From Pseudomonas sp. ACM7 (GTDB lineage: Bacteria; Pseudomonadota; Gammaproteobacteria; Pseudomonadales; Pseudomonadaceae), in contig NZ_CP024866.1 in the NCBI RefSeq assembly GCF_004136015.1, positions 3,768,028-3,804,179 of the forward strand: a stretch of DNA of 36,152 bases, written 5' to 3'. Both the position numbers and the translations under genes were made by a program. Of the stretch, positions 6,990 to 36,152 are shown in pieces. The notes below the pieces were generated by a model. That model searched no databases, was not told the origin of the DNA, and was given only the letters and a program-made list of their open reading frames with translations. How positions within the stretch are numbered: position 1 is the stretch's first letter; every line of letters begins with the position of its first letter.

Positions 6990-7687
6990 GCGTCGGTCTC
7001 CTGTTCTTCGGCAATGGCGCGGGCCATGGCGTCTTCTTCGCTTTCTTCTTCGAAGTCACTCAAATCCAGCGGGTCATCGGTTTCCAACAGCTTTTCGTCG
7101 CTGTCGTCGTCGATCAGCACCGGAACCGGCAGAGGCAACACGCTGTGCAGGCTGGCGGCCAGATCACGGTCTTGTTGGACCGACAGGCAGACATCGAGGA
7201 AACGGTGCATCGGCGGCAGGAAACGGTAGATGCCGTTTTCTTCACCGGCGAAACCGAGCTGAGTCATGCGGCGCATGATTTTTTCTTCGAGTTCTTCGAC
7301 GGTCTGCACTTCGGCCTGGATGAACAGGTCGCGGTACTTTTCCAGTAACGATGGCAATTCATCGCGGCCAAGGCTGCCACCGTCGAGCACGGCGACCGGG
7401 TCCCGGCCCTGATCGGCCAGGTGCTCGACGAGAATGAAGGTGAACAGCGCCAGACGTTGCGCGGTCTTGTTCACTGCTGCGGCGGCGAGGTCCGGCACGA
7501 AGTAGTAGAAACCACGGGTGTCGCAGACCAATTCAAAGCCCAACGCCTTGAACAGCGTGCGGTACTGGTCCTGGAAGTTCGACAGTTGCGCGTACAGCTC
7601 CGGATCGCGGCGGCTGACGTGGTAACCCTTGAATAGCTCGCGAAAGATCGGCGCCAGCTGGGACAGTTCGTTTAGATCAAGATGCAT
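6986..7687 (-). CDS. mksE: MksE condensin accessory subunit
   Basis: This 233-residue protein lies between mksF and mksB, overlapping each (11 nt and 4 nt). In MksBEF and MukBEF systems, the E subunit is a small winged-helix protein that binds the kleisin (F). The N-terminal half is globular, with aromatic-rich segments (around residues 25-70), and the last 35 residues are strongly acidic. The identity rests mainly on its fixed position between a clear MksB and the F subunit and on its size. The ATG at 7687 is the only sensible start given the overlap. Confidence 0.88.
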   Translation of the reverse strand: MHLDLNELSQLAPIFRELFKGYHVSRRDPELYAQLSNFQDQYRTLFKALGFELVCDTRGFYYFVPDLAAAAVNKTAQRLALFTFILVEHLADQGRDPVAVLDGGSLGRDELPSLLEKYRDLFIQAEVQTVEELEEKIMRRMTQLGFAGEENGIYRFLPPMHRFLDVCLSVQQDRDLAASLHSVLPLPVPVLIDDDSDEKLLETDDPLDLSDFEEESEEDAMARAIAEEQETDA

Positions 7688-8954
7688 TTGGAATGCTCGC
7701 AGAATCCTCGGCGGCGGTGTCGGCGGCCGAGAGCAGGGCGAAGGAGCGCAGGCTGACCTGGTGCTCGTGAGTGTGGTAATCGCGGCGTTCCAGACGCTCG
7801 CGTGTGAAGCGTTTTTCCCGCGACAGGCGCGAGAACCAATACAGCAATTCGTCGGTAGCGCCGTCCGGCTCCTGCTCCAGCAGCCAGGTCATCAGGTCCG
7901 GCATCGGCAGGGCGTCTTCGCAGCGTTCGAGCATTTCCCGAACCGTGCGTGGCGCGCGCGGCGCTTCGCCTTTCTGCGTCTTGTGCGCCTTGGGGAAGCG
8001 CGCCGGTTTCGGCTCGAAACGGGCCAGCGCATAAACGTAGGCTTCGACCTGACTGGCGCTACCCAAGAAGGTGCTTTGCGGCCGAGTGAACATCGGCATC
8101 GCCGCTTGTGGCACCGCATCGATGCCTTTGCGACGGATGGCCGACAAAGCCAGCGCCGCGCCACGGGTCACGGCGTTGTGCCGACGGGCTTCTTCACGCA
8201 GCGGCAGCAGCAGTTCGCGGGCATGACGCAGCGTCAGCTGGGCGCTGGTCTGCATTTCGAGGATGCGCGCGTGGGTGCGCAGCAGCATGTCGTCATCGAC
8301 CAGGTGGCCGAGGCGTTGCTGCTCGGTGAGCATCTTCAGCAGCACGTTCTCGACCTTGCGCACGCCTTGTTCGAAGGCGCCGTCGGCGTTCACCAACTGG
8401 ATCATCGGTTCGACGTATTCGTCCCAGGTCGCCAGTACTTCGGCGTAACGCTGACGCAGCGGGATTTGCCGGTCGCTGGTCTTGGCCCGCTCGGCGACGG
8501 CCACCAGGGCCTGTTCGTCGTTGGCGAGTTTCTTCAATACGTCCCGTACGCGCATGTCGAGCAGGCGCAACTGGCGCGCCAGGTCGTGGCCGTCGCGGAT
8601 GTCGAAGGCGTCCTGGATATAACCGGCCAGGCGTTCGAGGTGACGCAAATAGGCTTCGATCTCCAGGCACAGGCCCAGGCGGTGCTCACGGCGCAGGTAG
8701 GCGAGGAAGTCGTGGATTTGCGCGTTGAGCTCGAAACGGTTCGGGCTTTTCGCCACGGGAACCAGAATGTCGAGGCGAATCCACACGTCCAGCAGGCTGG
8801 TGATGTCCTGCGGCGTACTGTCCAGTTGCTGGGCGGCCAACTGTGAACGCAATTCGTTGAGGCTCAAGGTGCCTTGGTCGAAGTGCTCGCACAGTGGCTC
8901 CAGAAGTGCCCAGTGTTCAGCGAGGGCGCGCAAGACGCGCTTGGGTTCGATCAT
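7677..8954 (-). CDS. mksF: MksF condensin kleisin-like subunit
   Basis: This protein is 425 residues if started at the ATG at 8954. A GTG at 9020 would add 22 residues. I prefer the ATG because the extension looks non-conserved, but neither start has a strong ribosome-binding site. The chain is almost wholly helical and rich in Leu, Arg, Glu and Ala. It fits a kleisin that bridges MksB heads, with an N-terminal winged-helix-like part and a long helical middle. It is the first gene of mksF-mksE-mksB and is divergent from holD. The shared intergenic stretch (8955-9121) holds the DnaA box at 9101-9109. Confidence 0.87.
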   Translation of the reverse strand: MIEPKRVLRALAEHWALLEPLCEHFDQGTLSLNELRSQLAAQQLDSTPQDITSLLDVWIRLDILVPVAKSPNRFELNAQIHDFLAYLRREHRLGLCLEIEAYLRHLERLAGYIQDAFDIRDGHDLARQLRLLDMRVRDVLKKLANDEQALVAVAERAKTSDRQIPLRQRYAEVLATWDEYVEPMIQLVNADGAFEQGVRKVENVLLKMLTEQQRLGHLVDDDMLLRTHARILEMQTSAQLTLRHARELLLPLREEARRHNAVTRGAALALSAIRRKGIDAVPQAAMPMFTRPQSTFLGSASQVEAYVYALARFEPKPARFPKAHKTQKGEAPRAPRTVREMLERCEDALPMPDLMTWLLEQEPDGATDELLYWFSRLSREKRFTRERLERRDYHTHEHQVSLRSFALLSAADTAAEDSASIPNAS

Positions 8955-31851: not shown

Positions 31852-33066
31852 ATGGCTATCAGCAATGTCCAGACCGGCGCGCAGCCGGCATCCGCGACTT
31901 CACAAAGCAGCCCTTTGGTCATGCGTATCATCGGCGCCGTGGCGCTGGCGCATTTGATCAACGACTTGATCCAGTCGGTGCTGCCGTCGATCTATCCGAT
32001 GCTCAAGGCCAACTATGGCCTGACCTTCACCCAGGTTGGCTTGATCACTTTGACGTTCCAGCTGACGGCTTCGCTGTTGCAGCCGTGGGTCGGTTACTAC
32101 ACCGATCGGCACCCAAAACCCTGGCTGCTACCCGCCGGGACGATTTGCACATTGATCGGCATTTTGATGATGTCGGTGGTCGGCAGTTTTCCGATGATTT
32201 TGCTGGCTGCAGGGCTGATAGGTATCGGCTCCTCGACCTTTCACCCGGAAGCTTCTCGCGTGGCGCGATTAGCGTCTGGCGGGCGGTTTGGTTTGGCGCA
32301 GTCGACATTTCAGGTCGGCGGCAATGCAGGCTCAGCCTTCGGTCCGTTGCTGGCTGCGGCGATCATCATTCCTTTCGGTCAGGGCCATGTGGCCTGGTTC
32401 GGACTGTTCGCAGTGTTTGCGCTGTTCGTGCTTTATCGGATCAGCCGCTGGTACGCCAACCACTTGAGCCTGTTCAAACTCAAGCAAGGCCAGGCGGCGA
32501 CACATGGCTTGTCGAAGAACCGCGTGATCAGTGCGCTGGTGGTACTCGGGCTGCTGGTGTTCTCCAAGTATTTCTACATGGCCAGTTTCACCAGTTACTT
32601 CACTTTCTACCTGATCGAGAAATTCGACCTGTCGGTGGCGAGTTCGCAGTTGCACCTGTTCCTGTTTCTTGGCGCGGTCGCGGCGGGGACCTTCTTTGGT
32701 GGGCCGATAGGCGACAAGATCGGGCGTAAGGCCGTGATCTGGTTCTCGATCCTCGGCGTAGCGCCGTTCACCCTGATCCTGCCTCATGTGGACCTGTTCT
32801 GGACCAGCATCCTCAGCGTCGTGATCGGCTTCATCCTGGCGTCAGCTTTCTCGGCGATCGTGGTGTATGCCCAGGAACTGGTGCCGGGCAATGTCGGGAT
32901 GATTGCCGGCGTGTTCTTCGGATTGATGTTCGGCTTTGGCGGGATTGGTGCGGCGTTGCTTGGGCATCTGGCGGACATACACGGCATCGAATACGTGTAC
33001 CTCCTGTGTTCGTTCCTGCCGTTGTTCGGGGTGTTGGCGATCTTCCTACCCAGAACCAAAAATTAG
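31852..33066 (+). CDS. fsr: Fosmidomycin-resistance-type MFS efflux protein
   Basis: This 404-residue protein has 12 predicted membrane segments and matches the Fsr (fosmidomycin resistance) family. Features are ALAHLINDLIQSVLPSIYPMLK at the start, the loop YYTDRHPKPW after helix 2, the FHPEASRVARLASGGRFGLAQS segment typical of the family, and IGDKIGRKAVIW after helix 8. Members export fosmidomycin and some other drugs. It is divergent from the chemoreceptor gene and ends in a small hairpin (33063-33087). Confidence 0.93.
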   Translation: MAISNVQTGAQPASATSQSSPLVMRIIGAVALAHLINDLIQSVLPSIYPMLKANYGLTFTQVGLITLTFQLTASLLQPWVGYYTDRHPKPWLLPAGTICTLIGILMMSVVGSFPMILLAAGLIGIGSSTFHPEASRVARLASGGRFGLAQSTFQVGGNAGSAFGPLLAAAIIIPFGQGHVAWFGLFAVFALFVLYRISRWYANHLSLFKLKQGQAATHGLSKNRVISALVVLGLLVFSKYFYMASFTSYFTFYLIEKFDLSVASSQLHLFLFLGAVAAGTFFGGPIGDKIGRKAVIWFSILGVAPFTLILPHVDLFWTSILSVVIGFILASAFSAIVVYAQELVPGNVGMIAGVFFGLMFGFGGIGAALLGHLADIHGIEYVYLLCSFLPLFGVLAIFLPRTKN

Positions 33067-33126: not shown

Positions 33127-33690
33127 TTATCCTGTTTGTACGGACAGGAAGCCGGATTTGTATTCGGTAATATTTAATTGGGTGTGATGCGTATTTGGAG
33201 CCGTGAAGGCATAAGGTAGTATTTTTTTACACTGCCGTAGTAGGTCTTCGTTGTCGAAGAAAAGAATGATTGGCCTCCCGTCAGTTTCTAAATTAGAAAG
33301 ATAGTGATCTAGGGATTTTAAAAAGGCATCATCCATTTGCTCCATAGATCTATTTGTATTTATTCCGGCCCTTCCAAAAATATCTAAATATTCAACATGT
33401 AGTTCGTCAAATAACTTGAAGGCTCTAACTCTAGAGCCTGCAAAGAAATCTAAACGAGGAGAGAATCGAAAGTCTAGTATGCAGCGAGGTCGAAATTTTC
33501 TCGCGAAATCTGCGAAAGAGCCATTTTTTTCGATTTCAACTTCTCTCATAAGCACAACAGTTCTCATGGAAGAATTTGTTGATGAAAGAACAGGCATTGG
33601 GGTTTCCTCAATCGCTGATTGAGCATGTGTTGCATTTTTTGAGCTTGCAACAAGTCGTAAGATGCTCGGCTTTCTTGTGTTATTTTTCAT
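33127..33690 (-). CDS. Unknown protein coupled to the AvcD-like deaminase, faintly DUF488-like
   Basis: This 187-residue protein starts at an ATG (33690) inside the end of the deaminase gene, overlapping it by 11 nt; a GTG at 33699 is also possible. The first 40 residues are Ser/Thr-rich. From residue ~45, the order 'SFADFARKFRPRCILDFRFSPRLDF … VRAFKLFDELHVEYLDIFG … GRPIILFFDNEDLLRQC' recalls the DUF488 layout (a strand, DVR.FPRS, L…GI.Y, then a late strand before a Cys). The resemblance is weak. The tight overlap and shared AT-rich composition suggest that it works with the deaminase or came in with it. Confidence 0.65.
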   Translation of the reverse strand: MKNNTRKPSILRLVASSKNATHAQSAIEETPMPVLSSTNSSMRTVVLMREVEIEKNGSFADFARKFRPRCILDFRFSPRLDFFAGSRVRAFKLFDELHVEYLDIFGRAGINTNRSMEQMDDAFLKSLDHYLSNLETDGRPIILFFDNEDLLRQCKKILPYAFTAPNTHHTQLNITEYKSGFLSVQTG

Positions 33691-35088
33691 GTGGAGCACT
33701 TGCCAGGTTTTCTAATAGGCGGTTTTCAATTTCTTTATAGCTAATTCGTAGTAGACCAGAAGCCCATTCCGGTTCGTGAAACTGCATTGTGCCTTCGTTG
33801 TTTTTAAGCTTTCTGCTTTTTATGAAGGCTCTTTTGTAAAGTCTAGGAGCAACCCCTGTAAATGGACGGAACAAAACTCGAGGGTGTGCCTCGCCTTGCG
33901 CTGATATCGTCTCGCTTGGCGCGCTCCAGTTACTTTTTGATTGCGCGATTGCATCACCGTGTAGAGTAAGCGCCAAGCTTTTCGGATAGGGTTCGATGTA
34001 TTGAACTTCATCTATTCCTGCTGACACGATATGTCTTGCGCAGTAGTGGCAAGGAAATATTGTGACGAACAGTCTGCCACCTACCGGTGAAGTTCCTTTG
34101 CGCGCAGCGCTTAAAAGTGCATCCATTTCGGCATGTACTGCCCGGCTGAACTCTAAGAGACGACCGATGCCAGTTTTCTTAAGTTGTTCTTTTAGCTTCG
34201 TAAATGTAACTCTTTTTAGTTCTGGGATCGTAGAGATTAATTCATTTATTATAATGTCTTGGTGTTTGTTGCTGCTGCAGTACTTATTGGTAATTGCGCA
34301 TCTATGATCTTGTGGAGGTGTTTCCGTTTGAGTTGAGAAATTACTGCCGTAAACACCGCCTCCTGCACTAGGAACTTCATTTGTTCCAGTGGATACCAGG
34401 TTTCCAGATTTATCCATTAGTGCGGCGCCCACTTGGCGAGATAAGCAGGCACTGCTCATTTGTGCGCCATACGCATGAAACATACCTGTTTCGCTTGGGG
34501 AAGGTCGAATGACTTTTTTATGTGTAAGAATATCAATTAATCGTCCGAGTTGGTCGTTGACGTCCCACTCTCGATTCTCTTGCTTTTTTTCGTCATCTAG
34601 AAATCTATTAGGAGAGTTGTCGACGAAAAAATCTGCTAAATGGAAGGTGTCCGCTACCTTTTGGCCATATGTAAGTCCAGAATCTTCGTCTCTAGCTATA
34701 AAAACATCAATTTCCGTGCTTGTCGAAGAATGGCATTTCTCGTCGCGAAGCCTTGCTTTTCTCGTCTTTGTCTCGCAAACGACACCAACTAAGCAGAACG
34801 CTTCTTGATATACAGCCCTTAGAAGAGAAACCTCTGCGGGGTGTTTTAATGAGTCAAGGATATAAACTCTTGTTTTTTTGGGGGCGTTTGCTTGAGATGG
34901 GTCTTGCTCTGCGATGGTTCGGGATTTTTTAATTTCTGATATTAGGCTCACCGCAACGCCAGCTGGATCAGATTTTCTAATTTTATCGCCTGCATCTTGA
35001 AGGGATTTAGCTCGTTCTAATCTATTTTTCTCTTTGATTGTGAAACTGTTAGAGGATGCCCAATTAAATATGGGGGCGGCCGCGGAAA
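33680..35088 (-). pseudogene. avcD: AvcD-type anti-phage dCTP deaminase, 5' truncated by IS30
   Basis: Residues 210-400 form a deoxycytidylate-type deaminase with zinc motif HAE (323-325) and PCHYC (350-354), preceded by the lead-in FHAYGAQMSSACLSRQVGAALMD and NEVPSAGGGVYGSN, and a Cys pair C268/C275. Upstream are the conserved DAGDKIRK and VYILDSLKHPAEVSLLRAVY of AvcD/dCTP-deaminase defence proteins. The N-terminal P-loop (GPxGxG…) that family members carry is absent: only about 15 codons lie between WASSNSF and the IS30 inverted repeat, and the only start codon there (GTG) is inside the repeat. AvcD enzymes deplete dCTP after phage infection. AT-rich composition unlike the rest of the window suggests horizontal gain. 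The next gene overlaps its end. Confidence 0.8.
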
Positions 35089-36136
35089 CTGAGTGCAACA
35101 CCTGACCTTTCCGGTACGGTGTTGCCCCTATGTCCTATCACGAACTTAGCGTCGAAGAGCGCGTAACCATCCAACTCGGTCACGTCCAAGGCTTCAGCCT
35201 GCGCAGGATTGCCCTCTTGATCAAGCGCTCGCCCTCAACCATCAGCCGGGAGTTGAGGCGTAATGGGGAGCGTTGCGGCAGTTACTCAGCCCACACTGCT
35301 CAGCACTCTATGCGGGTTCGTCGTCGCCCCTGCCGCACTTGGTGTCTCATATGTTGCGTGAGCGTTTGTCTCCTGAGCAGATTGCCGGCAAGCTGCGCAG
35401 CATGAATATTCCCAGCTTGAAAGATGCCTATGTTTGCCGAGAGACGATCTATAGCGCGGTCTATGCCCTGCCCGTTGGTGAGTTACGCAAAGAGCTAATC
35501 ATCTGCCTGCGTCAGGGCAAAAGCACGCGCCGCCCTCGTGCCGCAGGGGTAGATCGGCGCGGCCAACTTCCTGATATGGTCAGTATCCACGTGCGCCCGC
35601 CGGAGATTGAAGACCGTCTGATGCCCGGTCATTGGGAGGGAGACCTGATCAAGGGTAAGGCCAACGCCTCGTCCGTCGGCACGTTGGTGGAGCGCACCAG
35701 TGGTTACCTGATGCTGGTGAAGATGCACGACGCGACGGCGACCTCTGCGGTGGAGGGCTTCAGCGCAGCGCTCAATCGTATGCCGCTGGCGATGCGTAAG
35801 AGCATGACCTACGACCAGGGGCGGGAGATGGCACGGCATGCGGAAATTACCCAGAAGACTGGCGTCGCCATCTATTTTTGCGACCCGCACAGCCCTTGGC
35901 AGCGCGGCAGCAACGAGAACATCAATGGTTTGATCCGCCAGTACCTACCCAAGGGCACAGACTTGTCGAAACACAGCCAGGAAGAACTGGATGCCATAGC
36001 CCTGCAATTGAACATGCGCCCACGTAAGCGTTTCGATTTCAAATGCCCCATCGAAATGATGGGCCAAGTGATGCAAGAGGCCATCGCTTGGCGGCATGAT
36101 GCCCCAACTTCAATTCAATAACCGTGTTGCACTCAG
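35089..36136 (+). mobile_element. IS30-family insertion sequence, 1048 bp
   Basis: The inverted ends are CTGAGTGCAACAC at 35089-35101 and its exact complement GTGTTGCACTCAG at 36124-36136. Inside is an IS30-type transposase in two frames. The outer flanks (GGAAA on the left, CTCCAG on the right) show no matching target duplication. The element sits inside the 5' part of the avcD-like gene. Its GC content is close to the chromosome's and unlike the AT-rich gene it interrupts. Confidence 0.88.
35130..36121 (+). pseudogene. IS30-family transposase, frameshifted
   Basis: Two frames together make one IS30 transposase. The first (from ATG 35130) holds the N-terminal helix-turn-helix (MSYHELSVEERVTIQLGHVQ…, SPSTISRELRRNG). 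It derails after MRVRRRPCR near 35330, where the frame runs on to a stop at 35405. The second frame carries the rest, from PHLVSHMLRERLSPEQIAGK through GHWEGDLIKGKA (first catalytic Asp), MTYDQGREMARH (second Asp) to DPHSPWQRGSNENINGLIRQYLPKG (catalytic Glu) and ends at 36121. Compared with intact members as I remember them, a short segment between CR and HLVSHML looks missing, with a net frame change. The full-length enzyme therefore cannot be made without frameshifting. Confidence 0.88.
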
Positions 36137-36152
36137 CTCCAGCATCCGCCAA

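Follow-up and report, generated by a model that had tools for sequence, protein, structure and literature searches.

The DNA analysed here, referred to as the window, is a 36,152-nucleotide stretch of Pseudomonas sp. ACM7 that corresponds to positions 3768028-3804179 of a 6.6-Mb single scaffold. An open reading frame of 473 codons occupies positions 33680-35101 of the minus strand, with its stop codon at 33680-33682. The frame was matched by the PADLOC dCTPase profile (E 3.7e-143, profile positions 196-548 of 630), by the NCBIfam model NF041025 for anti-phage dCTP deaminases (407.4 bits against a cut-off of 400, from profile position 38), which places it in this family, and by PF00383 (E 1.3e-12). 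Two zinc motifs of the deaminase domain are intact, the catalytic HAE motif (34127-34135, minus strand), which is invariant in the aligned homologs, and the zinc-binding PCHYC motif (34040-34054, minus strand), which is invariant or nearly so. The stretches LQDAGDKIRK and VYILDSLKHP are both present. These results verified an earlier reading made from the sequence alone, which had recognised an AvcD-type deaminase with HAE, PCHYC, DAGD…LRK-like and VYILDSLKHP stretches. The same reading had reported a missing P-loop region, and no P-loop was found upstream of the zinc motifs in this frame, which thus lacks the N-terminal P-loop kinase-like region that is joined to the deaminase in this family. 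Judged by its sequence, the locus is classified as a broken avcD gene and not as a working AvcD.

A database search with the frame scored 7996 candidates, of which 4415 proteins reached E 1e-20 or better. The closest of the 120 matches listed was P0001, a protein of 533 amino acids that is 91% identical to the surviving part. An N-terminal GPxGSGTS P-loop was present in all 14 aligned close homologs (P0001 and 13 others), which start about 60-70 residues before the window frame; the window protein is the sole row without it. Within the genus, avcD-like genes at E 1e-40 or better were detected in 22 of 398 genomes, the own genome included, and the others are 34-42% identical.

The frame is preceded by an IS30-family element of 1076 bp with imperfect inverted ends (35075-36150, plus strand). 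Its transposase scored 291.1 bits with NF033563 (cut-off 80), which confirms the family named in the sequence-only reading. The boundary given there, position 35101, had to be moved. Related copies at E 1e-50 or better were found in 45 of the 398 genus genomes, own included, and the best full-length relatives (1113-1116 bp) match the query 35074-36152 from base 1 or 2 to base 1077-1079. The element therefore starts at about 35075, and the GTG start and first nine residues (MLHSVSAAA) of the 473-codon frame are encoded by the left end of the element read outwards (35075-35101, minus strand). A purine-rich GGAAAGG lies just 5' of this GTG. What belongs to avcD is the stretch 33680-35074 (minus strand), which holds codons 71-533 in P0001 numbering, with the deaminase domain and what is left of the kinase-like domain, and one further codon in the place of codon 70. 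This remnant has no start codon of its own before the GTG of the element.

The transposase gene is split into two frames (35130-35405 and 35273-36121, plus strand), because about 37 bp are lacking from it in the window copy. This stretch is present in two other copies of the same genome (L007 and L008) and in six aligned relatives, in which the longest open stretch comprises 350-354 codons. An assembly artefact is possible at the missing bases because there are contig breaks in this part of the two other own copies as well. Both of these copies end in gaps of 100 N (L007 4262-4360, L008 3362-3461). Past the gap in L008 the sequence is unrelated, and the scaffold therefore hides content at this IS30 repeat. 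The window copy agrees with the IS30 family in its transposase match and inverted ends, but differs by its split transposase frame and by its flanks, where inspection by eye found no 3-bp target duplication. Such duplications were read by eye at 7 of 16 related insertions (L069, L070, L071, L079, L081, L083 and L084); several of the other nine have common flanks and are not independent. The missing duplication is read as a sign of later rearrangement and not as a ground to doubt the IS30 assignment.

Past the end of the window, the scaffold continues with 100 N, once more an IS right end, and then host sequence. There, beyond the element, residues 1-22 of P0001 are encoded at 3804568-3804633 with 95% identity. 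This 5' part of avcD ends after MAVAKQTIHTASNESHQGSNILGGCWS and reads five residues into the element before a stop, which gives a stub of 27 residues in all. On the near side, agreement of the frame with P0001 begins at residue 71 and continues to the end of the protein, with a Pro codon in place of Ala70; the search reported the match from residue 66, but residues 66-69 pair with residues encoded by the element. P0001 residues 23-65 had no match anywhere in the assembly. The lost block accordingly comprises codons 23-69 or 70, about 141-144 bp or approximately 47 codons. In the predicted structure of P0001 (pLDDT 80.3) it covers a strand (30-36), the P-loop, a helix (43-57) and a second strand (60-66), and the best Foldseek matches of this model were the dCMP deaminases 2hvw and 7fh4 and the adenylate-kinase-related protein 3lw7. 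The sequence-only reading had the element starting in the middle of the P-loop region and advised looking for the missing 5' part beyond position 36136. The element does disrupt avcD and the first 22 codons do lie beyond it, outside the window; the insertion is more than a start inside the P-loop region, as the assembly lacks about 47 codons that belong between the two flanks.

The interval 33127-35101 given in the sequence-only reading holds two genes, avcD and a second one that this reading had left aside and that is the less expected part of the locus. Downstream of avcD, and overlapping its 3' end by 11 bases, lies an intact frame of 187 codons (33127-33690, minus strand, ATG at 33690), here called the partner gene. 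No PADLOC or NCBIfam model matched it, and a single-sequence search returned 13 proteins, own included. Three partner homologues and avcD homologues come from equally sized longest contigs (17838, 3798 and 4910). For the own partner protein (P0121), a contig of 6602660 bases is listed, 100 more than the 6602560 of the genome record G000. The partner was present at all ten avcD relatives found in genome contigs (L033-L042) and at the three best plasmid relatives that were opened out of 61 matching records. A profile of 17 rows (A3), searched against 398 genomes of the phylum, hit five places in four genomes, own included, and avcD was directly upstream at every one; at one of them (L125) the contig end truncates avcD, and there is one stop in the partner. 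As A3 was built from eight of the ten genome loci and all three plasmid rows, only L039, L040 and L122-L125 count as independent. Among 121 loci scanned in all, A3 had no match at 32 loci with more distant deaminases (L010-L020 and L047-L067), several of which represent the same places. By its gene neighbourhood, the small gene is a conserved partner of avcD, in distant bacteria too.

Some of these loci have peculiarities of their own. In Rhizobium gallicum (L118 3770-5387), the annotation divides avcD into two overlapping genes that lie in different frames; this copy may therefore also be broken, and the TIR-partner gene behind it is still open. In a Bryobacteraceae MAG (L041 2326-3793), the avcD match likewise consists of two pieces that differ in frame, either through a real break or through a sequencing error. 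Near avcD and the partner in Rhizobium sp. CIAT894 (L119) and Pseudosulfitobacter (L120), a pair of multiubiquitin and ThiF genes was seen.

The predicted fold of the partner had no significant match in the PDB. In L034, L035 and L042 the partner forms the front part of a protein of approximately 640-650 amino acids with a TIR_2 domain (PF13676), and the next gene in L118 is annotated as TIR. When the first 185 residues of the protein from L042 were used as a query against long candidates only, 14 proteins were found and all 14 carried TIR. Some homologs thus resemble TIR-domain proteins, with TIR_2 behind a common N-terminal part, whereas the partner in the window is free-standing and without such a domain. 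Profile-profile comparison also gave a weak alignment with DUF488 (PF04343) over 50 columns on a common D-x-R..P-R stretch (hhalign E 0.0083, probability 4.8). Membership in this family is not claimed, since PF04343 matched none of the 17 partner sequences at E up to 1, and the alignment is kept as a lead only.

The base composition supports the description of the locus as AT-rich and foreign-looking (GC 0.434 in the avcD part and 0.388 in the partner gene, against 0.581 in the window). On one side the segment is bounded by a native MFS transporter gene (31852-33066, plus strand), and on the other by ychF, which was present in all 59 genus genomes searched, own included. The ychF locus was obtained for 30 of them, again counting the own genome. 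Of the loci of the 29 relatives, 13 have the MFS gene beside ychF without avcD, the others having been read only in part, and among the rows listed the distance between the two genes is 70-207 bp in 12 of these 13. In the same 13 loci, similarity on the MFS side ends where the MFS gene does; for the sequence separating the element from ychF, the own locus was the only match among the 30. Because the flanking genes adjoin without avcD in these relatives, the operon is, on comparative grounds, an acquired segment. In Pseudomonas pudica (L033), too, avcD and its partner come after ychF; behind them the 3' part of ychF, read by eye, occurs a second time (7633-8247), which looks like an entry of the segment at the end of ychF. 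Because of this arrangement, ychF may be a repeated acquisition point.

Taken together, avcD was very probably broken recently by an insertion and an adjacent deletion, and most likely is a recent pseudogene. An acquired two-gene anti-phage operon, avcD with its small partner gene, would have stood between the MFS gene and ychF. An IS30-family element would then have entered avcD behind codon 22, and a deletion of about 141-144 bp next to the element would have removed codons 23-69 or 70 and with them the first strand, P-loop, first helix and second strand of the kinase-like N-terminal domain. This would leave the 27-residue stub before the element and, after it, a deaminase frame without its own start codon, with the partner gene intact but cut off from its original upstream region. 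Insertion and deletion beside the element would explain both the missing codons and the missing target duplication. The order ychF, avcD 5' part, element, 3' part, partner and MFS gene agrees with the neighbourhood of MFS and ychF in the 13 relatives. Against this reading, 100 N follow directly after the element and the next contig starts inside an IS right end, so that the junction is not read through. As the codons between the flanks are absent from the assembly, they must either have been deleted or be hidden in the scaffold gap. In the latter case nothing would have been deleted: two IS30 copies would sit in avcD with codons 23-69 between them, and the middle piece would have fallen into the gap. 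The position of the gap exactly at the end of the element fits such an arrangement, as does the fact that the visible flanks are not paired by any target duplication, but it requires two insertions within about 145 bp, and no other left end flanked by avcD sequence was seen among the five matches to the element listed in the assembly, nor was any piece of the segment encoding codons 23-69 found there. Both absences are weak evidence, as a short contig may have been dropped. This arrangement is regarded as improbable; the missing codons probably represent a true deletion rather than an effect of the assembly gap, and activity would be lost. Judged from the two flanks, avcD is broken under both readings.

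A further question is whether the deaminase still functions, as the sequence-only reading had considered in the form of a deaminase persisting without its sensor domain. The remnant would then be expressed from the GTG of the element and work without the P-loop. The 473-codon frame is open, its zinc motifs are intact, GGAAAGG precedes the GTG, and the conserved columns have not decayed: in 185 columns identical in the other 13 rows, there was one change unique to the window and one unique to P0001. Such a lack of decay would be expected after a recent break, and just as much in a gene that is still constrained. The one window-only change, however, is T to I and adjoins PCHYC. In a simple scan, the minus strand of the element showed no promoter-like site, and over 4 kb the scan returned a single site, beyond the element and the gap (shuffled mean 4.7). 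According to the structure prediction, the first strand-helix-strand of the kinase-like domain would also be gone, and P-loop mutants of AvcD are reported to be inactive. Expression of a functional remnant from the element is therefore given very little credence, and a working deaminase free of a P-loop is possible but unlikely. A natural AvcD family that lacks the P-loop and starts where the window frame starts can practically be dismissed, as it is contradicted by the P-loop of every aligned close homolog and by the own genome, which keeps the matching first 22 codons beyond the element. Close homologs starting at this place without a P-loop, which would have spoken against the sequence-only reading, were thus not encountered. 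Its suggestion that costly dCTP depletion caused the loss found nothing to support it.

The surviving part of avcD can be compared with the AvcID system of Vibrio, in which, according to the portions of the reports available, AvcD is paired with the RNA antitoxin AvcI of a minimum of about 171 bases (PMC10511110, PMC12409362, PMC9455884). It has the same deaminase domain with zinc motifs as AvcID (available portions of PMC10511110 and PMC12409362), with similarity over the whole surviving part and family models above cut-off, but lacks the P-loop segment. It also differs by the second protein gene overlapping the avcD end, which is not mentioned for AvcID in the available portions of PMC10511110, PMC12409362 and PMC9455884. 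A literature search, which left out two 2022 primary papers, returned no paper on the partner gene, and the gene is not claimed to be undescribed. Upstream of avcD (L006 4560-4960), no Rfam match was found, in a collection that may not include AvcI, and the RNA fold there had a z of -1.69. In P. pudica, ychF and avcD are separated by only 117 nt.

The position of the partner directly beside avcD at all five profile matches, together with the TIR fusions of some homologs, suggests a variant of AvcD to which a second protein belongs. It is tentatively proposed, as an idea that may well prove wrong, that this AvcD clade forms a two-protein defence, in which the partner, free-standing in Pseudomonas and TIR-fused in rhizobia and others, would control the deaminase or sense for it in place of the AvcI RNA, or would add a TIR-type effector responding to the nucleotide change. 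In the strain studied here, the deaminase is most likely broken while the partner remains.

Disruption of a defence gene by an insertion sequence is common, and the window locus alone is chiefly a record of a deaminase defence lost in one strain. Of wider interest is that the AvcD deaminases of a clade are accompanied by a second gene, conserved and unnamed, in some cases with a TIR domain. If the partner is a required component, defence by dCTP deaminases would not always be a one-gene or RNA-controlled affair, and the PADLOC and NCBIfam models searched, which recognise the deaminase and not the partner, would see part of the system only.
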